IMG/VR virus record: IMGVR_UViG_3300021379_001151 | Coordinates: 1-28,180 of that record | Source: a virus | Reading direction: 5' to 3' (one strand) | Length of the DNA: 28,180 bases | Part shown: positions 21,763-27,702 of the stretch, piece by piece | Layout of the letters: each line of letters begins with the position of its first letter | How positions within the stretch are numbered: position 1 is the stretch's first letter | Position numbers and translations under genes: made by a program | The notes under the pieces: model-generated | What the model was told of the DNA's origin: nothing | Database searches by the model: none | The model's input: the letters and a program-made list of their open reading frames with translations, nothing else

Positions 21763-21771
21763 GGAAAACTA
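21763..21771 (+). promoter_or_regulatory. GGNAAACTA intergenic motif, copy C
   Basis: GGAAAACTA starts three bases past the stop of the 53-residue gene and lies 32 bases before the scaffold ATG. Flanking bases (TAATTAGGAAAACTA) resemble the minus-strand copy at 23009-23017 (TAATTAAGGAAAACTA). It is a candidate start or control site for head-gene transcription. Confidence 0.45.
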
Positions 21772-21778
21772 TCGGGCC

Positions 21779-21800
21779 AAAAGAGGCGTGATGCCTTTTT
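21779..21800 (+). terminator. Terminator-like hairpin directly before scaffold ATG
   Basis: AAAAGAGGC pairs with GCCTTTTT (one G-T wobble) around the loop GTGAT, ending in five T. The T-tract ends three bases before the scaffold start codon at 21804. The only GAGG that could serve as a ribosome site is buried in the stem and about 17 bases from the ATG. It could terminate upstream transcription or act as a processing or translation-control hairpin. Confidence 0.6.
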
Positions 21801-21803
21801 ATT

Positions 21804-22535
21804 ATGTCCGAACAAACTGTAAACGATCTGAATGCAACCGAGACGGTTGTCGAAGATCAAGCCCTTCCGAGCGAAGGCCAAAAGACCTATACTGAAGATG
21901 AGGTCCAGCGATTGCTTAGTGCTGTAAAGAAAACACGAGATGAAGTAAAAACCTATCAGAAAGAAAACAAAGAGCTTCTCTCTCAAATGGAGAAGTTCAA
22001 AGAAATCAATCCTGATGAATATCGAAAACTGCAAGAAGACGCGGCTCTTGCTGAGAAAGAGCGTCGAGCAGTAGAAGAGCGATCGTCTTTGCTTGAAGAG
22101 AAATACGGCGCACAGACGGCAGAAGCTGTTAAAGCGATGGAGGCGAAGGAAGCAGAGCTTACTGAGTTTCGTAAACGCTATGTGCTAGAGAAAGTTTTCT
22201 TTGCTGCAGGCGGTCGTACAGACGCGGATGGTGGAGCAAGCTTCTTTGATCTGATTGCTGACAGAGTCGGACATCGATTCAAGCTTGACGGTTCTGGTCA
22301 AGTCATTGTGGTTGACGAACAAGGTGATCCGATGATTGATAAGGAGACAGGCAAACGCCTTGATCCGGAAACGTTCATGGCAAGTTTTAAAACGCATCGA
22401 ATCTACGGTACGTTCTTTAAGTCGCAAAAAGGTGCAGGAGCTGCTTTGCCTTTGGGATCAGATCCTTCTGCAATCCCTGGCGAGGATCTTGACAATATGA
22501 GTGGAGACGAAATGTTTATGCGTGGTTGGGCCTAA
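21804..22535 (+). CDS. Capsid assembly scaffolding protein (243 aa)
   Basis: Predicted internal scaffold for procapsid assembly. The N-terminus is acidic and disordered (residues 1-28). It is followed by a long Glu/Lys-rich coiled coil from about 30 to 125 (VQRLLSAVKKTRDEVKTYQK, EKERRAVEERSSLLEEK). A small folded C-terminal part follows (YVLEKVFFAAGG, then FKLDGSGQVIVVDEQGDP and KETGKRLDPETFMASF). This coiled-coil-then-short-core layout, and the location just upstream of the major capsid gene, are typical of phage scaffold proteins. No protease motif is seen, so capsid maturation cleavage, if any, is encoded elsewhere. Unusually, a two-gene minus-strand cassette separates it from the capsid gene, with only one base between the convergent stops. 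Confidence 0.85.
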   Translation: MSEQTVNDLNATETVVEDQALPSEGQKTYTEDEVQRLLSAVKKTRDEVKTYQKENKELLSQMEKFKEINPDEYRKLQEDAALAEKERRAVEERSSLLEEKYGAQTAEAVKAMEAKEAELTEFRKRYVLEKVFFAAGGRTDADGGASFFDLIADRVGHRFKLDGSGQVIVVDEQGDPMIDKETGKRLDPETFMASFKTHRIYGTFFKSQKGAGAALPLGSDPSAIPGEDLDNMSGDEMFMRGWA

Positions 22536-22536
22536 C

Positions 22537-22824
22537 TCACCACTTCACGCGATTCGCCCAATAGGCCGCGCTCATCTTACCCTTTTTAATATTTCTTGCA
22601 TGGCGGGCTTTGAAAGAGGCCCGCTTTTTCTTCATTGCACTGCTCTCGCCAGCCTTGGGCTTGCCTGCAGTTTTGGCTCCTTTCTGACCGAAGCGAATCG
22701 TCTTGATTCGTGAGCCTTCTTTGGCGACAACAATATGAGACTTGGTCTTATGACCAGGAGTCCTCTTTGGTTTGTTATAACCACTGACTCCAGCTTTTTT
22801 TAATCTAGGGTCAGGCTTTTTCAT
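22537..22824 (-). CDS. Basic phage protein of conserved unknown type (95 aa)
   Basis: Lys/Arg-rich protein beginning MKKPDPRLKKAGVSGYNKPK and ending ARNIKKGKMSAAYWANRVKW. I recognise this as a type recurring in many phage genomes (a basic DUF family with the KTKSHIVVAKEG and RIKTIRFGQ strands followed by a basic helix). Its function is unknown; nucleic-acid binding is plausible from charge. The start codon overlaps the stop of the upstream minus-strand gene (ATGA), so the two are translationally coupled. It converges on the scaffold gene with a one-base gap and no terminator between them. Confidence 0.85.
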   Translation of the reverse strand: MKKPDPRLKKAGVSGYNKPKRTPGHKTKSHIVVAKEGSRIKTIRFGQKGAKTAGKPKAGESSAMKKKRASFKARHARNIKKGKMSAAYWANRVKW

Positions 22825-22979
22825 TTCTTCCTCTTCTTAGCTGTCTTTGCTGCTTTACGGAAATCGCTTGCCTTGGGAGCGCCTTTGCTACCAGGCTTGC
22901 GCATCCTTTCATCGCTACCGGCCTTGATACGACGGCGTTTTGCTGCGATATTGGCGTATAACCCCGGTCGTTTGGCCAT
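22821..22979 (-). CDS. Very basic small phage protein (52 aa)
   Basis: A 52-residue frame starting MAKRPGLYANIAAKRRRIKA and ending KTAKKRKK. It belongs to a recurrent phage small-protein type with the core GSDERMRKPGSKGAP. About a third of the residues are Lys/Arg. The stop overlaps the next gene's start by four bases, making a two-gene operon. Function is unknown; DNA or RNA binding is inferred from charge. It was found by reading the minus strand from the CAT at 22977-22979. A copy of the GGNAAACTA motif lies 29 bases upstream in the matching orientation. Confidence 0.8.
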   Translation of the reverse strand: MAKRPGLYANIAAKRRRIKAGSDERMRKPGSKGAPKASDFRKAAKTAKKRKK

Positions 22980-22980
22980 T

Positions 22981-22998
22981 ACTTAAAAGTTTTTAAGT
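22981..22998. other. AT-rich inverted repeat
   Basis: ACTTAAAA and TTTTAAGT flank GT, an 8-base-pair palindrome just outside the minus-strand start codon at 22979. It could be a weak hairpin in the minus-strand leader or an operator. No function can be assigned. Confidence 0.4.
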
Positions 22999-23008
22999 TA
23001 TCCAAGTT

Positions 23009-23017
23009 TAGTTTTCC
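23009..23017 (-). promoter_or_regulatory. GGNAAACTA motif on the minus strand, copy F
   Basis: Read on the minus strand the site is GGAAAACTA with TAATTAA in front, close to copy C before the scaffold gene. It lies 29 bases upstream of the minus-strand cassette start, which matches the spacing and direction of the plus-strand copies. This orientation match is the best argument that the motif is a directional signal. Confidence 0.45.
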
Positions 23018-23039
23018 TTAATTACTTTTTTTTCGGAAA

Positions 23040-23163
23040 TCTAGTGTGAGTACCCAGCCCTGATGTTCGTGATGAGCTTTCAGGGAGGGTCAACCGTCAA
23101 TTTGAACGTGATGTTCTAAATGACGACGCCTTTCCTGTTTATTCTTTCATCATTTTTTTTATC
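23040..23163 (+). promoter_or_regulatory. Major capsid gene leader with U-rich tract
   Basis: Leader between the divergent minus-strand cassette and the capsid gene. It holds a weak pairing (CCCTGA with TCAGGG across a 16-base loop) and a pyrimidine-rich end with eight T at 23153-23160, three bases before the ATG. No Shine-Dalgarno sequence or good sigma70 boxes are seen. A loosely motif-like GGAAATCTA lies at 23035-23043. The U-tract may be a ribosomal S1-type entry site; this is inference. Confidence 0.4.
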
Positions 23164-24054
23164 ATGGCTCTTACTTTAGCCGAAGCTAAAAAGCATTCCA
23201 CAAACATCCAAGAACGGGCAATTATCACCGAGTTAGCCGCTGGCCAGCTCCTGTCCGTCATGCCTTTCCGCGAGATTCCTGGTGGCGGCCACTTCTGGCG
23301 TCGTGAGGAGTCCCTGGGTGATGTCGGCTTCCGTGCTTTCAACGACACCTACACCGAAAGCTACGGTTCGACCAAGCAACAGTCTGAAGCTCTCCGCCTG
23401 TTTGGTGGTGATATAAAAGTTGACAAAGCCATCGTCGATCTCGAAGGTGGCGAGGCCCGTGCTTATCAGATCCAATCCAAGACCCGCGCAATGCGCCTTG
23501 CTTGGGAAGGTCTGTTCATCAACGGTGACGCCAACAGCACTGCTAATGAGTTCGACGGCCTTGCTCGTCGCATTCAGTCTGGTTCTAGCCAGTTCTTCAC
23601 CAATGGCGTTGGTAACATCAACCTGGACAAGCTTGATGAAGCCATCGACAGCGTGGACGCCCAGGGCGGTTCCAAGTATCTGGTGATGTCTAAGTCTGCT
23701 CGTCGCGCCCTGAGCAAAATTGCTCGCGCTAACGGCCAGATCGATATCGAGCGCACTGCATTCGGCTACCAGCAAATGGTTTACGCCGGTCTGCCCGTGC
23801 TCGAACTGGATCGTGACCACCTGAACGTGGCCATCCTCGACTCCGACCCTGCCGACCAGGACATCTATGTGGTCTCCTTCGGTAACGACCTCCTGACCGG
23901 CATCCAGAATGGCGGCCCTCAAGTCCGTGACCTGGGTGAGGATACTGCAGCTCCTGTGCTCACCACCCGCGTTGAGTGGTACTGCGGCATGGCTCTGATC
24001 AACGGTCGCGCTGCAGCTCGCCTGAATGGTGTTAACGCTACCGCTTCTCTCTGA
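23164..24054 (+). CDS. Major capsid protein, HK97-fold type (296 aa)
   Basis: Predicted main shell protein. The N-terminus (MALTLAEAKKHSTNIQERAI, then LLSVMPFREIPGGGHFWRRE) matches capsid proteins of a known HK97-like tailed-phage group that start near the N-arm without a fused delta domain. The central FINGD after RAMRLAWEG, a spine-helix-like region (LDKLDEAIDSVDAQGGSKYLVMS), and a C-terminal strand with VEWYCGMALINGRAAARL also fit. A separate scaffold gene upstream agrees with this. Codon use is strikingly C-ending and GC-rich against AT-rich neighbours, the pattern expected for the most highly translated virion gene. A strong terminator follows. It has no Shine-Dalgarno sequence but a T8 tract just before ATG. 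Confidence 0.92.
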   Translation: MALTLAEAKKHSTNIQERAIITELAAGQLLSVMPFREIPGGGHFWRREESLGDVGFRAFNDTYTESYGSTKQQSEALRLFGGDIKVDKAIVDLEGGEARAYQIQSKTRAMRLAWEGLFINGDANSTANEFDGLARRIQSGSSQFFTNGVGNINLDKLDEAIDSVDAQGGSKYLVMSKSARRALSKIARANGQIDIERTAFGYQQMVYAGLPVLELDRDHLNVAILDSDPADQDIYVVSFGNDLLTGIQNGGPQVRDLGEDTAAPVLTTRVEWYCGMALINGRAAARLNGVNATASL

Positions 24055-24080
24055 TCGCTAATTAAAGCAATCATTAAAAT

Positions 24081-24110
24081 AAACCTCCTTGGTTGCAAGG
24101 GGGTTTTTTT
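24081..24110 (+). terminator. Strong intrinsic terminator after the capsid gene
   Basis: AAACCTCCTTG pairs with CAAGGGGGTTT (11 pairs, one wobble) around the loop GTTG, and the run of seven T ends at 24110. It follows the major capsid stop by 26 bases. The next ATG starts at 24111, directly after the T-tract. Confidence 0.85.
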
Positions 24111-24140
24111 ATGGCTATGGTTTGAATGCGTTGGACGTGA
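24111..24140 (+). other. Two abutting minimal ORFs between terminators
   Basis: ATG GCT ATG GTT TGA (24111-24125) is followed at once by ATG CGT TGG ACG TGA (24126-24140), five bases before the next terminator stem. They would encode MAMV and MRWT. They sit where leader peptides of attenuators sit, but chance is a serious alternative at this length. Confidence 0.25.
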
Positions 24141-24144
24141 CCTG

Positions 24145-24175
24145 GAGCCGGGGATGAGATCCCGGCTCTTTTTTT
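24145..24175 (+). terminator. Intrinsic terminator before the 85-aa gene
   Basis: GAGCCGGG pairs with CCCGGCTC across an 8-base loop and is followed by seven T. The T-tract ends five bases before the ATG at 24181. It lies only 35 bases after the capsid terminator, so the two act in series. Confidence 0.8.
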
Positions 24176-24180
24176 GCCTT

Positions 24181-24438
24181 ATGGAAAACATCACCACCAA
24201 AGAACAGGAACTACGCTTGACGAAACTCCTCGTAAGAGCGATCAAAAATGATCAGATGTCAGTTTTTCTTGGAATATGTAGTGCTGGAGTTGATTATGTT
24301 CCAAAAGATTCAATGCGCAGAATTTTGATCGACGAAGTTCCTGCTTCTTTGGAAGAGTCTGAAACCAAGAGAATGATCAGTTGGATTAGTCAAGCTTTAC
24401 AAGCGATGACTCAGGCTAAGGATACTGCTAATATCTGA
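24181..24438 (+). CDS. Unknown small protein (85 aa)
   Basis: Helical, charged protein beginning MENITTKEQELRLTKLLVRA, with no recognised family. ATG 24181 is preferred over the in-frame ATG at 24154, because the latter lies inside the terminator hairpin and would add MRSRLFFCL encoded by stem and T-tract. No membrane segment or metal motif is visible. It is flanked on both sides by intrinsic terminators, so it forms a one-gene unit whose transcription must come from read-through or an unseen promoter within 70 bases. Confidence 0.75.
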   Translation: MENITTKEQELRLTKLLVRAIKNDQMSVFLGICSAGVDYVPKDSMRRILIDEVPASLEESETKRMISWISQALQAMTQAKDTANI

Positions 24439-24450
24439 CCGGGATCCCCC

Positions 24451-24485
24451 ACCGGGGCAGAACTTCTGCCTCGGTCCCTTTTTTT
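24451..24485 (+). terminator. Intrinsic terminator overlapping the next start codon
   Basis: ACCGGGGCAGA pairs with TCTGCCTCGGT (11 pairs, one wobble) around a 3-base loop, then CCC and seven T. The last T residues are part of the TTG that best starts the following gene (24484). Confidence 0.8.
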
Positions 24486-24837
24486 GTCAACTCGCTATTC
24501 AAACAAATTGGCTGAAGGACGCTGGGACACAGTGCAAGACTTGGTGGACGCAAAAAAAGTCCAACAGAAAGTCAAAAAGAAACTCATCCAGAGACCGCCA
24601 TCCAAAGAGAAGCTTTACAAGATGGCTCAGTATGCAGTCAAGCAAGTCCTAGAGGACTACAAGCAGCATTCTGATGATGAGTTACATCAAGTCGCTACAG
24701 AGACACTGGGTAATGAATACCGTTGGCTCAAATACAGAGTTGTTAATTCAGTGGTGCTTATTAAAAATGCACCTAATCCACTTTATCAACTAGATGATAG
24801 GGGTGGAAAACTTTACTGGACAAAGCAACATCAATAA
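24484..24837 (+). CDS. Unknown protein (117 aa), TTG start
   Basis: Soluble charged protein beginning MSTRYSNKLAEGRWDTVQDL with a Lys-rich helix (KKVQQKVKKKLIQRPPSKEK) and a C-terminal beta-like part (NEYRWLKYRVVNSVVLIKN). No family is recognised. The proposed start is TTG at 24484, taken from the terminator T-tract. The next candidates are a TTG nine codons on, or a far internal ATG that would lose over a third of the protein. No Shine-Dalgarno sequence is present. It converges on the SprT-like gene, sharing a two-way terminator. Confidence 0.72.
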   Translation: MSTRYSNKLAEGRWDTVQDLVDAKKVQQKVKKKLIQRPPSKEKLYKMAQYAVKQVLEDYKQHSDDELHQVATETLGNEYRWLKYRVVNSVVLIKNAPNPLYQLDDRGGKLYWTKQHQ

Positions 24838-24862
24838 AAAAAAGGGGCTAAGCCCCTTTTTT
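24838..24862. terminator. Bidirectional terminator between convergent genes
   Basis: AAAAAAGGGGC pairs with GCCCCTTTTTT around TAA. The A-run on one side and T-run on the other make it work on both strands. It separates the plus-strand 117-residue gene from the minus-strand SprT-like gene. Confidence 0.85.
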
Positions 24863-25259
24863 ATTTGATCACTCCGTATTTCTTTTTGGTCAATATAGTC
24901 AGTTCTCGACAACGGCTTTTAAACCATCGACCATGATCACCATCAGTCTTTCGAACAATATATTGTTCTGCGTGAATCATTTCATGCAATAAAATATTCA
25001 AAGTGAATTTTTTAGACATATAAGGATTGATGGTGATGCCATCGAAACGATTGGCATAGCCAAATGCACGGCCACAAAGACCACCGTTTTTGTTTCCCCT
25101 AAAGTAAATTCCTACATTTAGAGGAAGCTTCATGTCGAAATACTTGAGATTGAACTTGATGTACTGAGCCATCAACCAATCATCATCAAGTTTCTCTTTA
25201 ACGCAAAGAGAGTCTGGGCCGTGGGGGCGTTTTGCTGGAGCAAGTGGGACGTAAACCAT
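24861..25259 (-). CDS. SprT-like zinc metallopeptidase (132 aa)
   Basis: Small SprT/Wss1-type zinc peptidase domain. The zinc motif is HEMIH (His92, Glu93, His96), with a third probable ligand at His109 in GDHGRWF, the spacing usual for the family. Upstream strands (LPLNVGIYFRG, then GRAFGYANRFDGITINPYM) match the beta-hairpin preceding the active-site helix. In cells SprT/Spartan proteins cut DNA-crosslinked proteins; phage versions are of unknown target, so repair or host takeover is inference. It is encoded against its neighbours. It has an AGGGA ribosome site six bases before ATG and a consensus-like host promoter upstream, unlike nearly every other gene here. Confidence 0.88.
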   Translation of the reverse strand: MVYVPLAPAKRPHGPDSLCVKEKLDDDWLMAQYIKFNLKYFDMKLPLNVGIYFRGNKNGGLCGRAFGYANRFDGITINPYMSKKFTLNILLHEMIHAEQYIVRKTDGDHGRWFKSRCRELTILTKKKYGVIK

Positions 25260-25283
25260 GGGGGTTCCCTGTTGGACCCTTTC

Positions 25284-25312
25284 ATATTAACCGATCCGAG
25301 CGGCATTGTCAA
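25284..25312 (-). promoter_or_regulatory. Sigma70-type promoter for the SprT-like gene
   Basis: On the minus strand, TTGACA (25312-25307) and TAATAT (25289-25284) are separated by exactly 17 bases. The expected transcript start would be about 18 bases before the ATG at 25259. This is the best host-type promoter I found in the window. Confidence 0.7.
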
Positions 25313-25316
25313 CCTA

Positions 25317-25346
25317 TTGATTGGTAAACTATTGCAGTTTACCTTT
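25317..25346 (+). promoter_or_regulatory. GGNAAACTA motif copy D within a perfect hairpin, before hli
   Basis: GGTAAACT (25323-25330) and AGTTTACC (25336-25343) form a perfect 8-bp inverted repeat with loop ATTGC, then TTT. The left arm is the recurring GGNAAACTA motif, and 21 bases here match copy B at 15902-15922 with one mismatch. It lies 22 bases before the hli ATG. It may be operator, promoter element or a weak terminator. Confidence 0.5.
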
Positions 25347-25353
25347 CTTCACA

Positions 25354-25494
25354 ATGGAAAAAGCAGATCACGAGTACATCGAAACTCATTCAGAACTTGC
25401 CGAAAAGTTAAATGGGCGTTTCGCGATGTTGGGTATTGTTGCTGCTCTGGGAGCCTATTTTATGACAGGGGAAATTATTCCAGGCATTTTCTGA
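25354..25494 (+). CDS. hli: High-light-inducible (Hli) chlorophyll-binding protein (46 aa)
   Basis: One-helix thylakoid stress protein carried by cyanophages. The signature is E17-KLN-G21-R22-FAMLG, the ExxNGRxAMxG chlorophyll-binding motif, starting the single membrane helix (~22-38) that ends in YFMTGEIIPGIF. In cyanobacteria Hli proteins bind pigment and protect photosystems under stress; phage copies are thought to keep host photosynthesis running during infection. The start is ATG 25354, seven bases beyond the hairpin's T-rich side, with no Shine-Dalgarno sequence. Its TGA overlaps the next ATG (ATGA), coupling it to a second one-helix membrane peptide. Confidence 0.95.
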   Translation: MEKADHEYIETHSELAEKLNGRFAMLGIVAALGAYFMTGEIIPGIF

Positions 25495-25607
25495 TGGGCT
25501 ACTGGCAAATGGTTGGCATCGTAGGTGGCATTACAGGCATCCTAATGGCATCTATGGTGCTAGCCGTTCGCTGGTTGGTTAAAAACGATGGGAAACTCTC
25601 CGGTTGA
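25494..25607 (+). CDS. One-helix membrane peptide (37 aa)
   Basis: MGYWQMVGIVGGITGILMAS begins a hydrophobic helix (about residues 6-28) followed by a short basic tail (WLVKNDGKLSG). The ATG overlaps the hli stop codon (ATGA), so it is translated with hli. No family is recognised. It lacks the NGR motif, so it is not a second Hli. It could be a partner of Hli in the thylakoid or a small holin-like membrane protein; neither is shown. Confidence 0.65.
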   Translation: MGYWQMVGIVGGITGILMASMVLAVRWLVKNDGKLSG

Positions 25608-25743
25608 TAAAAGTCAAGATTTTATTAAATCCGGCAAGAAGTTGATTACTGAATACGGAAGCCTAAGTGGTGAGATAGCCACAGGAGGGCTAAATGGCAA
25701 GCACAAGCCTAAGCACAAGGGGTCTAAACATCCCAGCGTATGA
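25588..25743 (+). CDS. Small basic protein overlapping both neighbours (51 aa)
   Basis: An ATG-to-TGA frame beginning MGNSPVDKSQDFIKSGKKLI and ending HKPKHKGSKHPSV. It overlaps the upstream membrane peptide gene by 20 bases and the downstream 62-residue gene by 50 bases, and covers the 86 bases that otherwise lie empty between them. Composition is soluble and protein-like (an amphipathic start, then a Gly/His/Lys-rich tail). No Shine-Dalgarno sequence. No function is recognised. Confidence 0.55.
   Translation: MGNSPVDKSQDFIKSGKKLITEYGSLSGEIATGGLNGKHKPKHKGSKHPSV
25683..25688 (+). promoter_or_regulatory. Shine-Dalgarno AGGAGG
   Basis: A full AGGAGG five bases before the ATG at 25694 fixes the start of the 62-residue gene. 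It is the strongest ribosome site in the window and lies inside the overlapping 51-residue frame. Confidence 0.85.
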
Positions 25744-25882
25744 CTATGTGTTTAACACATACACTGCAGGCAATTTAACTCAGACGGTGTATCGGATCGG
25801 CGGTGCTGCCGGTGACATTGTTGCCACGTTGACTTACACCTACGACGGCAACAACAACGTTGAATCCATCACTAAGACCTGA
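25694..25882 (+). CDS. Small phage structural-type protein (62 aa)
   Basis: Beta-hairpin protein resembling a short phage family found beside tail fibre genes: a RGLNIPAYDYVFNTYTAGNL start, then QTVYRIGG, then VATLTYTYDGNNNVESITKT. Its role is not known; virion appendage or fibre-associated is likely from relatives and from the fibre-like gene that follows after two bases. The start is set by the AGGAGG at 25683-25688. Codon use is more GC-rich than in the big adhesins. Confidence 0.8.
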   Translation: MASTSLSTRGLNIPAYDYVFNTYTAGNLTQTVYRIGGAAGDIVATLTYTYDGNNNVESITKT

Positions 25883-25884
25883 TT

Positions 25885-26220
25885 ATGCCTTATCAATTTG
25901 ACCCATTAACAGGATCTGTTTCACTGTCTGGAGGGGGTGGCCTGACAGATGTCAATGGACCTATGTCTGGCTCTGTTATTCCGGACACAAACTCCAGTTA
26001 CGACTTAGGTTCTGCCGAGAACAAGATTCGCCACCTTTACCTGTCTGATAATTCCATCTACACCACTGGTGGAGTTCTTAGTATTGGCGATGCTGATGAC
26101 GCTGATCCTCCGTCAACCAAGCAGCGTCCAATTAAAGGTACTGACTTCAAAACTCTTGTTCAGCAATCTGCCGACTTTGCTGATTTTAAGGCTCGTATCG
26201 ACGCCGCAACTGAGTTCTAG
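25885..26220 (+). CDS. Short tail-fibre-like protein (111 aa)
   Basis: Contains the motif SVIPDTNSSYDLGSAENKIR followed by HLYLSDNSIY and a TTGGVLSIG strand. This is the YDLGS...RxLYLS...SIY repeat seen in phage fibre and baseplate-appendage proteins, including those of T4-like cyanophages. The N-terminus is Gly-rich (LSGGGGLTDVNG) and the end is helical (FKTLVQQSADFADFKARID). Much shorter than ordinary fibres, it may be a chaperone-like or adaptor piece or a single-domain fibre subunit. It starts two bases after the previous stop, so it is co-transcribed. Confidence 0.78.
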   Translation: MPYQFDPLTGSVSLSGGGGLTDVNGPMSGSVIPDTNSSYDLGSAENKIRHLYLSDNSIYTTGGVLSIGDADDADPPSTKQRPIKGTDFKTLVQQSADFADFKARIDAATEF

Positions 26221-26237
26221 TTTGGTAGCCTAAATTG

Positions 26238-26278
26238 GGCAAACTGTCAGTGACATTGCAGTTTTCCTGAAGTTTTCC
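26238..26278. promoter_or_regulatory. Cluster of GGNAAACT half-sites, copy E
   Basis: GGCAAACTG (26238-26246, plus) faces CAGTTTTCC (26259-26267) and AAGTTTTCC (26270-26278), which are GGAAAACTG and GGAAAACTT on the minus strand. The first two form a 9-base inverted repeat with one mismatch. It lies in the 75-base gap before the GC-rich 115-residue gene, whose ATG is 49 bases after the first site. It suggests a dimeric binding site or a promoter. Confidence 0.4.
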
Positions 26279-26295
26279 TTATTCTCTTTATAACA

Positions 26296-26643
26296 ATGGC
26301 AGCTCGTTCTTCTGGTATTTTTCCAATTGAGGGTTTTCATCCCGATAAGCTGATGGAGGTCCCCGTGACTACTCCTGCAGCTTGTCCTACCACCCTCGAA
26401 AACATCACCACCATCCGCGTGGTTCTCGTTAACGCCGCTATCACTGGCGATGCCAACGTGACCGTCACCATCGGTGGTCAAGACGTGGTCTTCGAAGCTG
26501 GCGACCTGGATCTGAATGGCGTGGGCATCTCCCACGTTCGTGGTTCCCTGTGTGACGCTAACAACAACATGGTGTATGTCACTAACGCTGGCGGTGGTTC
26601 TGTGTCCGTCGACAGGGTCTATCTGGACGCAGTCGACTTCTGA
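26296..26643 (+). CDS. Probable highly expressed virion protein, decoration-like (115 aa)
   Basis: Compact beta-rich protein: MAARSSGIFPIEGFHPDKLM, then VRVVLVNAAITGDANVTVTI-like strands and a C-terminal VSVDRVYLDAVDF. No named family is recognised. Codon use is strongly C-ending and GC-rich, like the major capsid gene and unlike the adjacent genes, so it is probably made in large amounts. A capsid decoration (cement) protein or another abundant virion part is the likeliest reading, by inference. A pyrimidine-rich leader precedes the ATG without Shine-Dalgarno, and a strong terminator follows. Confidence 0.8.
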   Translation: MAARSSGIFPIEGFHPDKLMEVPVTTPAACPTTLENITTIRVVLVNAAITGDANVTVTIGGQDVVFEAGDLDLNGVGISHVRGSLCDANNNMVYVTNAGGGSVSVDRVYLDAVDF

Positions 26644-26665
26644 TTTCCGTTTTTTGTGGAATAAT

Positions 26666-26694
26666 AAGGGGGTACTTTTACCCCCCTTTTTTTT
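26666..26694 (+). terminator. Intrinsic terminator after the decoration-like gene
   Basis: AAGGGGGTA pairs with TACCCCC(C)TT around the loop CTTT, followed by a run of eight T ending at 26694. The next ATG is at 26699, four bases later. Confidence 0.85.
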
Positions 26695-26698
26695 AGCC

Positions 26699-27070
26699 AT
26701 GTACTTAGACAAGCGTCCAACAATCTTTACAAAAGACGGACAAATCAAAGAAGTTTTCCACACAGTCAAGGCAGATGAGCTAAAGAAGTTGGGCTGGGTT
26801 GTTGAAGGGGAAGACGAGACCGAAGTAACTAATGATCTGCCGGGTGAGCCTGACTCTGCCCCTGAAGCCGAAGCCAATCCAGAAGAGCTTGAGGCTATTC
26901 AAAAAATTGAAGCCGAAGAAGATCTTAAAATGATGCTTGAAACGATGACGAAGGACAAATTGATCGCCTTTGCCGAAGAGAAAGGGGTTCGAGTTGATCC
27001 TCATGCCAAGAAAGCAAATATTATTGATAAAATTATCCAAGATATTGACGATGTTGAGGTAGGCCGATGA
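26699..27070 (+). CDS. HeH/SAP-like domain protein (123 aa)
   Basis: The N-terminal 35 residues form a small basic fold (MYLDKRPTIFTKDGQIKEVF, then ADELKKLGWV). An acidic linker (~36-75) follows, then a C-terminal helix-extended loop-helix motif (TKDKLIAFAEEKGVRVDPHA, then KKANIIDKII, ~82-115). HeH/SAP/LEM-like domains bind nucleic acid or act as docking modules and are common in phage head-gene clusters; the role here is unknown. The start at 26699 is preferred to an upstream in-frame ATG at 26516, which would overlap the 115-residue gene and translate the terminator. Its TGA overlaps the next ATG (ATGA). Confidence 0.82.
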   Translation: MYLDKRPTIFTKDGQIKEVFHTVKADELKKLGWVVEGEDETEVTNDLPGEPDSAPEAEANPEELEAIQKIEAEEDLKMMLETMTKDKLIAFAEEKGVRVDPHAKKANIIDKIIQDIDDVEVGR

Positions 27071-27255
27071 TTGAATTTGAATATGTAAAAGGGCCAAGAA
27101 TCTTAGAAGATGGAAGGAATTTGGATGAAGATGTTAAGTCATCTTTTCCTACTAACGTCCAGAATCGTCAGATCACTGATCCTGTCAGTGATGGATCTCT
27201 TGGAGAAGGTGGCTATGCTCCAGGACAGAAAAATAAGGATGGCACAGATTTATAA
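27067..27255 (+). CDS. Unknown small protein (62 aa)
   Basis: Short soluble protein beginning MIEFEYVKGPRILEDGRNLD and ending GGYAPGQKNKDGTDL. No family is recognised. The start overlaps the previous stop by four bases, so it is coupled to the HeH-domain gene, and the pair ends at a terminator. Composition suggests a small beta unit followed by a disordered Gly/Asp tail. Confidence 0.75.
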   Translation: MIEFEYVKGPRILEDGRNLDEDVKSSFPTNVQNRQITDPVSDGSLGEGGYAPGQKNKDGTDL

Positions 27256-27278
27256 GGCATACTAGTTAGTATGCTTTT
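27256..27278 (+). terminator. Intrinsic terminator, short
   Basis: GCATACT pairs with AGTATGC around AGTT, followed by four T ending at 27278. It begins directly after the stop of the 62-residue gene. The next ATG follows six bases after the T-run. Confidence 0.7.
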
Positions 27279-27284
27279 AATCCC

Positions 27285-27389
27285 ATGCCAATGCCCAAGG
27301 CTCTTGCCGCCAACATGAAAAAAATGAAAGAGAAAGCTATGAAAGGTAAAAAAGGAGGTTACAAGAAGTCTCCTAAAGGCAAAAAATGA
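27285..27389 (+). CDS. Lysine-rich peptide (34 aa)
   Basis: An ATG-to-TGA frame of 34 codons, MPMPKALAANMKKMKEKAMK and then a GKKGGYKKSPKGKK tail. Thirteen of 34 residues are lysine and there are six methionines. It exactly fills the space between two terminators, which supports a real gene despite its size. It may bind DNA or RNA, or be a virion-packaged basic peptide; this is inference from charge only. ATG 27291 is an alternative start two codons in. Confidence 0.55.
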   Translation: MPMPKALAANMKKMKEKAMKGKKGGYKKSPKGKK

Positions 27390-27398
27390 ATAAATGAG

Positions 27399-27426
27399 GA
27401 AGCCTATAATAGGCTTCTTTTTTTTT
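27399..27426 (+). terminator. Intrinsic terminator before the XhlA-like gene
   Basis: GAAGCCTA pairs with TAGGCTTC around TAA, followed by nine T ending at 27426. The GTG start of the next gene is six bases downstream. Confidence 0.8.
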
Positions 27427-27432
27427 GCAATT

Positions 27433-27702
27433 GTGGATCCTGAACACATCAGCCAAGCCGATGTTTACCACAGACTAGGAAGTCTAGAAGGTAAGTTAGA
27501 TGCTGCTATCTCACAAATGGCAAGCCTAAGAAGTGACATAAATATTGCTTTTCAACGAATACGAAAGATCGAAACGCAAGTCAACAGGTTTGTAGGTATT
27601 GGCCTGGTTCTGACAATAATTATTCCTGCAGGGATCACTTATTTAGCCAGCACAAATCAGCATGTCGTAGAAAGAGTAGTGATAGAAAGGCTCGAAGAAT
27701 AA
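27433..27702 (+). CDS. Coiled-coil plus one-helix membrane protein, XhlA-like (89 aa)
   Basis: MDPEHISQADVYHRLGSLEG leads into an amphipathic helix or coiled coil (~12-52), then a single membrane helix (54-72: VGIGLVLTIIIPAGITYL) and a short charged tail. This layout matches XhlA/holin-accessory type phage proteins that anchor lysis factors at the membrane. It lies next to a C39-like peptidase, but a lysis role is inference. GTG at 27433 is preferred; the in-frame ATG at 27394 lies in the terminator stem and would translate its T-tract to Phe-Phe-Phe. Confidence 0.75.
   Translation: MDPEHISQADVYHRLGSLEGKLDAAISQMASLRSDINIAFQRIRKIETQVNRFVGIGLVLTIIIPAGITYLASTNQHVVERVVIERLEE

Follow-up and report, generated by a model that had tools for sequence, protein, structure and literature searches.

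Candidate late promoters, terminator hairpins and a leader RNA stem-loop in the head module of a cyanosiphovirus

Introduction

In phage phiEco32, late promoters are read by the phage sigma factor phi32_gp36, which has no recognisable region 4. These promoters lie upstream of late genes and consist of a single element with no -35, and transcription starts 6-8 nucleotides (nt) downstream (PMC8948821). For the Prochlorococcus phage P-SS2, two sigma factors have been described, one of group 2 and one of group 3 (PMC2784084). Intrinsic (Rho-independent) terminators in Rho-less cyanobacteria are formed by a GC-rich hairpin followed by a T-tract (PMC13289151). The present work deals with the gene boundaries of virus record IMGVR_UViG_3300021379_001151, analysed over its positions 1 to 28,180 (the window), in which hairpins and T-tracts stand next to the start codons of late genes.

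The nearest named relatives of the window are the Synechococcus phages S-CBS2 and S-CRES1-3 and the phage P-SS2, and the virus is a cyanosiphovirus related to them, with ocean or freshwater cyanobacteria as hosts. The gene boundaries considered here belong to its late (head) module. This module carries the genes for the scaffold, the capsid, hli and a HeH-type protein, plus small neighbours. A sequence-only reading of this DNA had proposed that hairpin, T-tract and start codon form one consistent unit. The hairpins and the T-tract-to-start distances that it listed were found again in the sequence, and the named genes have no clear Shine-Dalgarno (SD) sequence, but that reading merged four different things into one unit. 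The arrangement favoured here, with a probability of roughly 0.75, gives each late gene, or small group of genes, one promoter, with terminators overlapped by promoters at particular boundaries and a separate leader RNA element.

Results and discussion

The recurring word GGMATACTAG was first spotted in the intergenic gaps of annotated relatives. Motifs and hairpins were then counted in 85 related loci (856 kb), where the pattern GGNATACTA showed 145 matches on the late strand and none on the reverse strand, with about 8 per shuffle. The iterated matrix reads attGGnAnnCTAg, and its extended form is attGGnAnnCTAg-N3-R. The aligned sites present no -35 column; a purine occupies index 13 in 92% of them, mostly with a pyrimidine just before it, a pattern that resembles a transcription start site. 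The motif lies within 150 nt upstream of 362 of the 692 late-strand genes, versus 9 on the control strand; its distances to the starts peak at 25-35 nt, and it is correctly oriented at five divergent minus-strand genes. In the whole S-CBS2 genome there are 26 forward and 2 reverse matches, the forward ones nearly all in the late part (7-42 kb). These quantities, like the overlap geometry, the conservation, the covariation and the domain content of the sigma proteins given below, were computed directly from sequence; start sites, the pairing of sigma factor with motif, termination efficiency and what the leader RNA does are predictions drawn from them.

In P-SS2, 8 forward and 1 reverse matches were counted in 107 kb (loci L102-L107), despite the presence of a small sigma gene; the motif may have diverged in this phage.

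A position weight matrix (PWM) trained without the window and without the isolates (the held-out PWM, threshold 8.5) located sites 29-41 nt before nine starts of the window, namely 12216, 15942, 21598, 25694 and those of the scaffold, hli, HeH, Lys-rich and XhlA-like genes. About 0.06 coincidences would be expected for these nine plus-strand sites, as computed from the shuffle rate. Further sites lie 52 nt before 25588, 72 nt before 26296 and upstream of the capsid gene, where nearly all the relatives also carry the motif, 128-141 nt before the start. The sites around the scaffold and capsid genes are:

21763 to 21776, plus strand: late-promoter motif GGAAAACTATCGGG, 41 nt before the scaffold start (held-out PWM 13.9)
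23035 to 23048, plus strand: late-promoter motif GGAAATCTAGTGTG, 129 nt before the capsid start (held-out PWM 15.2)
22979 to 23017, minus strand: motif 38 nt before a divergent gene of 52 amino acids (aa; 22821-22979), 19 bp from the capsid promoter (score 11.0)

The last two would be back-to-back promoters of late type (22979-23035), serving the minus-strand 52-aa gene and the capsid gene; divergent minus-strand genes of four relatives (45-48 aa) also carry the motif.

Host sigma-70 promoters were considered as drivers of these genes and rejected, as their 38 matches were not above the 44 expected in shuffles, and none lies between a terminator and a start. According to the model, transcription of most late genes would begin at an individual -10-only promoter, attGGnAnnCTAg, from a purine lying 5-6 nt downstream of it. 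Since HeH, XhlA, hli, Lys-rich, scaffold and capsid each have a promoter-like motif of their own, the antitermination that had been suggested for the region is unnecessary for these six genes.

Regarding the factor that would read the motif, sigma region 2 was detected in proteins of 12 out of 14 records of related phages, as a rule two per record; in S-CBS2 they are annotated as the rpoD-like gp061 and the 'rpoS' gp077. The small sigma (about 204-244 aa) is kept in eleven records. It matches the SigF and SigB/F/G families best, and this match is confined to its N-terminal part: Sigma70_r2 was matched in 9/9 scanned members, and region 4 was not found in any of these nine (E<=1). A small sigma without region 4 fits a -10-only promoter. 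The motif would most likely be read by the host RNA polymerase carrying the small SigB/F/G-type sigma of the phage, and the gp077-like proteins are the candidate readers.

The GG..CTA motif could instead be a signal for RNA processing or mRNA stability, with the hairpins protecting processed 5' or 3' ends. Its usual position right after stop codons, often beside hairpins, agrees with this idea. Nevertheless, it also occurs in divergent intergenic regions, oriented according to each gene, where no upstream transcript is available for processing; the purine start-site signature after it and the co-occurrence of sigma factors without region 4 also speak against this. The explanation is very unlikely, and the cutting of hairpins near the T-tract, as the sequence-only reading had put it, found no support here.

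Overlap of predicted promoters and terminators

Two boundaries of the window combine the motif with a terminator:

26658 to 26698, plus strand: overlapped promoter-terminator, with motif GGAATAATAAGGGG, hairpin 26666-26687, T8 at 26687-26694 and the HeH ATG at 26699
27396 to 27432, plus strand: overlapped promoter-terminator, with the motif (27398-27411, score 11.3) as the 5' arm of the hairpin, then T9 and the XhlA-like GTG at 27433

Among the relatives, the offsets between terminator and motif fall into two sharp groups, in which either the motif directly follows the T-tract or the hairpin overlaps the motif; the control strand gave 1/156. In the overlap group (25 cases) the 5' base of the hairpin lies 6-9 nt after the GG, at exactly 8 in 19 of them, and in three further cases the motif itself is the 5' arm. 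The HeH layout is kept in 39/42 non-redundant relatives (37 by script, plus the window and L052, whose start is mis-set although the element is present), with the T-run always 0-6 nt from the start, and the hairpin stems differ in sequence while the offset stays conserved. The overlap also occurs at XhlA in the window, at the gene that follows HeH in both S-CBS2 and L037 and, again in S-CBS2, at an HNH gene.

The consequences for folding depend on where the RNA begins. For 34 overlap elements, the mean hairpin energy goes from -12.9 kcal/mol in the full form to -4.2, -1.6 and -1.0 for starts at index 12, 13 and 14; at XhlA it goes from -13.1 to 0 from the predicted start site. According to the model, terminators would separate transcription units, and at HeH and XhlA the 5' arm would sit on the -10/+1 stretch of the promoter, with the T-tract as leader of the new mRNA. 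RNA arriving from upstream would fold the full hairpin and stop, and RNA begun at the promoter would start inside the 5' arm, lack that arm and escape termination; its leader, up to the start codon, would be short, unstructured and rich in pyrimidines. Probably a single short run of bases closes one message and opens another. Moreover, the terminators would seem to abut the starts with no room for a promoter because the promoter overlaps the hairpin: it is literally true that none fits between terminator and start, as had been claimed, but the motif lies just upstream of the hairpin or inside it.

Genome compactness alone could also place terminators near starts by chance, and the gaps in this region are often only 30-60 nt. 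The offset conserved at 39 of 42 HeH boundaries despite differing stems, and the two sharp offset groups with an almost empty control strand, make it highly improbable as a general account; it is disfavoured at HeH and remains the default for the open reading frames (ORFs) of 85 and 117 aa discussed below.

The unit of hairpin, T-tract and start is therefore real and selected at HeH, but it is not a general device. Among about 154 intergenic terminators of the relatives, 80 have the motif after the T-tract, and there the next supported start is nearly always 20-165 nt away. A uniform device for all virion genes was rejected, as in relatives it is present only at the HeH boundary and a few others. 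Counts of an ATG right after a T-tract in many relatives were also discarded; they look artefactual, given that the motif often begins aTGG and so supplies an ATG without a gene.

Terminators and palindromes at the other boundaries

The distances from T-tract to start are 3 nt for the scaffold (T5-ATT-ATG) and the capsid (T8-ATC-ATG, ATG at 23164), 5 nt for the 85-aa ORF (T7-GCCTT-ATG, ATG at 24181), 4 nt for HeH (T8-AGCC-ATG), and 6 nt for the Lys-rich ORF (TTTT-AATCCC-ATG, ATG at 27285) and the XhlA-like gene (T9-GCAATT-GTG, a putative start). The 117-aa ORF has a putative TTG start at 24484 within the T-run.

A strict scan found six intergenic terminators, with a stable GC-rich stem followed by a T-tract, in the head part: 24082-24105 (-14.5 kcal/mol), 24144-24169 (-17.8), 24451-24475 (-18.4), 24840-24861 (both strands), 26666-26687 (-12.3) and 27396-27420 (-13.1), versus none in the first 21.7 kb, the tail-gene part. 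A looser scan of 8.5-28.2 kb gave 31 sites versus 15.3 +/- 4.6 in shuffles. The hairpins at the scaffold (21780), hli (25323) and the Lys-rich ORF (27256) do not have this structure. Of the hairpins listed in the sequence-only reading, those at the 85-aa, 117-aa, HeH and XhlA starts are terminator-like, and the other three are a leader hairpin (scaffold) and promoter palindromes:

25323 to 25343, plus strand: late-promoter motif GGTAAACTATTGCA in an 8-bp palindrome, 31 nt before hli (score 16.3)
27256 to 27274, plus strand: late-promoter motif GGCATACTAGTTAG in a 7-bp palindrome, 29 nt before the Lys-rich ORF (score 15.2)

At hli, the 21-nt palindrome is followed by TTTCTTCACA and the ATG at 25354. 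In both cases the motif precedes its own inverted copy and there is no proper T-tract, so that terminators were rejected and the two hairpins are, as judged from their layout, palindromic promoter sites.

Two strong terminators abut ORFs for which the held-out motif scan found nothing upstream:

24144 to 24175, plus strand: intrinsic terminator abutting the 85-aa ORF, no promoter motif (-17.8 kcal/mol)
24451 to 24485, plus strand: intrinsic terminator whose T-run holds the putative TTG of the 117-aa ORF, no promoter motif (-18.4 kcal/mol)

No homologues of either ORF were found in an IMG/VR search. They may be accessory genes reached by read-through, or may not be expressed; read-through, which had been offered for the whole series, may occur at these two. 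Extended to the region, this would be an attenuated operon, in which one long late transcript passes leaky or antiterminated terminators and gives stepwise lower levels of downstream proteins. These two boundaries speak for it, as does the conserved RNA hairpin of the capsid leader, a place suited to a nut-like site, and terminators are rarely 100% efficient. Nevertheless, such an operon is unlikely, since a promoter-like motif precedes each of the remaining named genes, the start-abutting terminators in relatives are mostly of the overlap layout, and the leader loop is GNGAY, not GNRNA.

Several points weigh against one promoter per late gene with overlapped terminators. It does not account for the 85-aa and 117-aa ORFs, and the window fragment ends before any sigma gene. 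At its threshold, the PWM is modestly specific in this AT-rich window (14 plus and 5 minus matches, shuffle mean 6.9), and it is genomic position, not matrix score alone, that makes the matches convincing. With the held-out matrix, 26 of 29 overlap elements precede one gene family, so that a well-conserved geometry goes back to few independent origins. The escape from termination requires a start at index 12 or later, because a start at index 10 leaves a hairpin of -10.2 kcal/mol, and the argument fails for index 10 or earlier. Finally, palindromic promoter sites are weakly enriched overall (5 versus 1.8 expected).

The remaining terminators of this part are:

24082 to 24112, plus strand: intrinsic terminator downstream of the capsid gene (-14.5 kcal/mol)
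24838 to 24866, both strands: bidirectional terminator where the 117-aa ORF and the minus-strand gene 24861-25259 converge (terminator scans)

Directly 3' of the first, ahead of the second strong terminator, there is a four-codon ORF (ATG GCT ATG GTT TGA, 24111-24125), probably due to chance. The minus-strand gene 24861-25259 has a sigma-70-like promoter upstream (TTGACA-17-TAATAT, 25284-25312, minus strand) and looks like a host-transcribed accessory gene.

A stem-loop shared by the scaffold and capsid leaders

The two shell protein genes and their leaders are:

21804 to 22535, plus strand: head scaffolding protein, 243 aa (phrog_206, E=1.3e-21)
23164 to 24054, plus strand: major capsid protein, 296 aa (phrog_212, E=4e-74)
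21780 to 21800, plus strand: scaffold leader stem-loop, 8-bp stem and GTGAT loop at 21788-21792, not a terminator (scaffold-leader alignment A2)
23048 to 23163, plus strand: structured capsid leader, outer stem ACCC 23052-23055 / GGGT 23087-23090 (alignment A1, 30 leaders)

The capsid leader contains hairpins with GTGAT loops at 23069-23073 and 23108-23112, and then a pyrimidine-rich stretch with T8. In the related loci, 134 GTGAT-loop hairpins were counted versus 10.6 expected, with 3 on the other strand, and 110 of them are in scaffold or capsid leaders. Stems of 4 bp or more that carry a GNGAY loop are present in 53/59 scaffold leaders and 57/60 capsid leaders (versus 37/883 for GTGAT elsewhere); these loops nearly always read G[U/A]GA[U/C], with a pyrimidine as the last base. 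Covariation was found in both alignments: 96.1% of the cells are paired in the capsid leader, with 89 double changes versus 24.4 in shuffles and sliding controls at 52% paired or less, and 93.8% in the scaffold leader, with 46 double changes versus 13.7.

The GNGAY-loop stem-loop, present twice in the capsid leader and also in the scaffold leader, is a previously uncatalogued RNA element. Rfam 15 gave no covariance-model match for it, the best hits being far below the gathering scores, and GNGAY is not known to correspond to an established regulatory loop. None of the cyanophage motifs named by Weinberg in 2010 concerns the capsid (PMC2864571). With its promoter about 130 nt upstream, the capsid mRNA would have a leader of about 115 nt, versus about 15-28 nt predicted for most other late leaders. 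The role of the element common to both leaders is probably post-transcriptional, which is favoured by the scaffold hairpin ending near the start codon. In P-SS2, the same GTGAT hairpin sequence appears twice, at 101490 and 102197, about 700 bp apart and outside the capsid region.

It could also be thought that the U-tract is a ribosome-recruiting leader (S1-like), with T-tracts selected for initiation without SD and the hairpin being incidental. The named genes without a clear SD, the predicted pyrimidine-rich and unstructured new leaders and the bare T8 at the capsid would agree with it. Nevertheless, the stems are paired and GC-rich with terminator-typical T-tracts, the scaffold and capsid leaders of most relatives lack the T-run (T5 follows the scaffold hairpin of the window, but no T-run follows most of its equivalents), and translation alone does not explain the constrained motif-hairpin offset, all of which renders it improbable as the main cause. 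A pyrimidine-rich leader that aids SD-less initiation would be compatible with promoters overlapping terminators.

A broader proposal, to which we give somewhat less than even odds, is that late gene boundaries are fused terminator-promoters, in which a start site within the hairpin arm decides whether the terminator forms. Separately, the GNGAY stem-loops would be a new family of cis-regulatory RNA through which a phage protein (e.g. unassembled scaffold or capsid) co-ordinately sets the synthesis of both shell proteins.

From these results come a late-promoter code that can be tested and a candidate for the late sigma of cyanosiphoviruses, a group for which there is little transcription data in the searchable literature. 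Furthermore, one stretch of about 40 bp can serve as terminator for one message and as promoter plus leader for the next, and a conserved RNA element common to scaffold and capsid messages would open the translational control of capsid assembly to direct testing. A search outside subscription journals found no matching papers on overlapping promoters and terminators or on late promoters of cyanosiphoviruses.

Comparison with known systems

In phage P22, the scaffolding protein is associated with autogenous or leader-hairpin control of the head genes. Regulation of scaffold and capsid at the mRNA level would fit the shared leader hairpin described here, with the difference that no binding protein is known in this case. 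The lambda-type nut/boxB element has a GNRNA pentaloop, whereas the loop found here is G[U/A]GA[U/C].

The late promoters of phiEco32 are similar in being a single-element motif with no -35, and its sigma factor without region 4 has counterparts in the nine relatives scanned. A start at the purine of index 13, with a pyrimidine before it, would be compatible with the start distance of 6-8 nt in phiEco32. On the other hand, the phiEco32 motif is tAATGTAtA and the one found here is attGGnAnnCTAg, and the present system would involve a SigB/F/G-type sigma, a cyanobacterial host and terminators overlapped by promoters (PMC8948821). P-SS2 belongs to the same phage group, with predicted sigma-70-type promoters, terminators and two sigma factors; the accessible part of its description presents BPROM sigma-70 predictions, and not a late motif, an overlap or a leader RNA (PMC2784084). 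Lastly, the terminators of the window share the GC-rich hairpin and T-tract of the intrinsic terminators of cyanobacteria, which are hosts without Rho for this type of phage (PMC13289151), but here the 5' arm of the hairpin overlaps the predicted start region of the next promoter.

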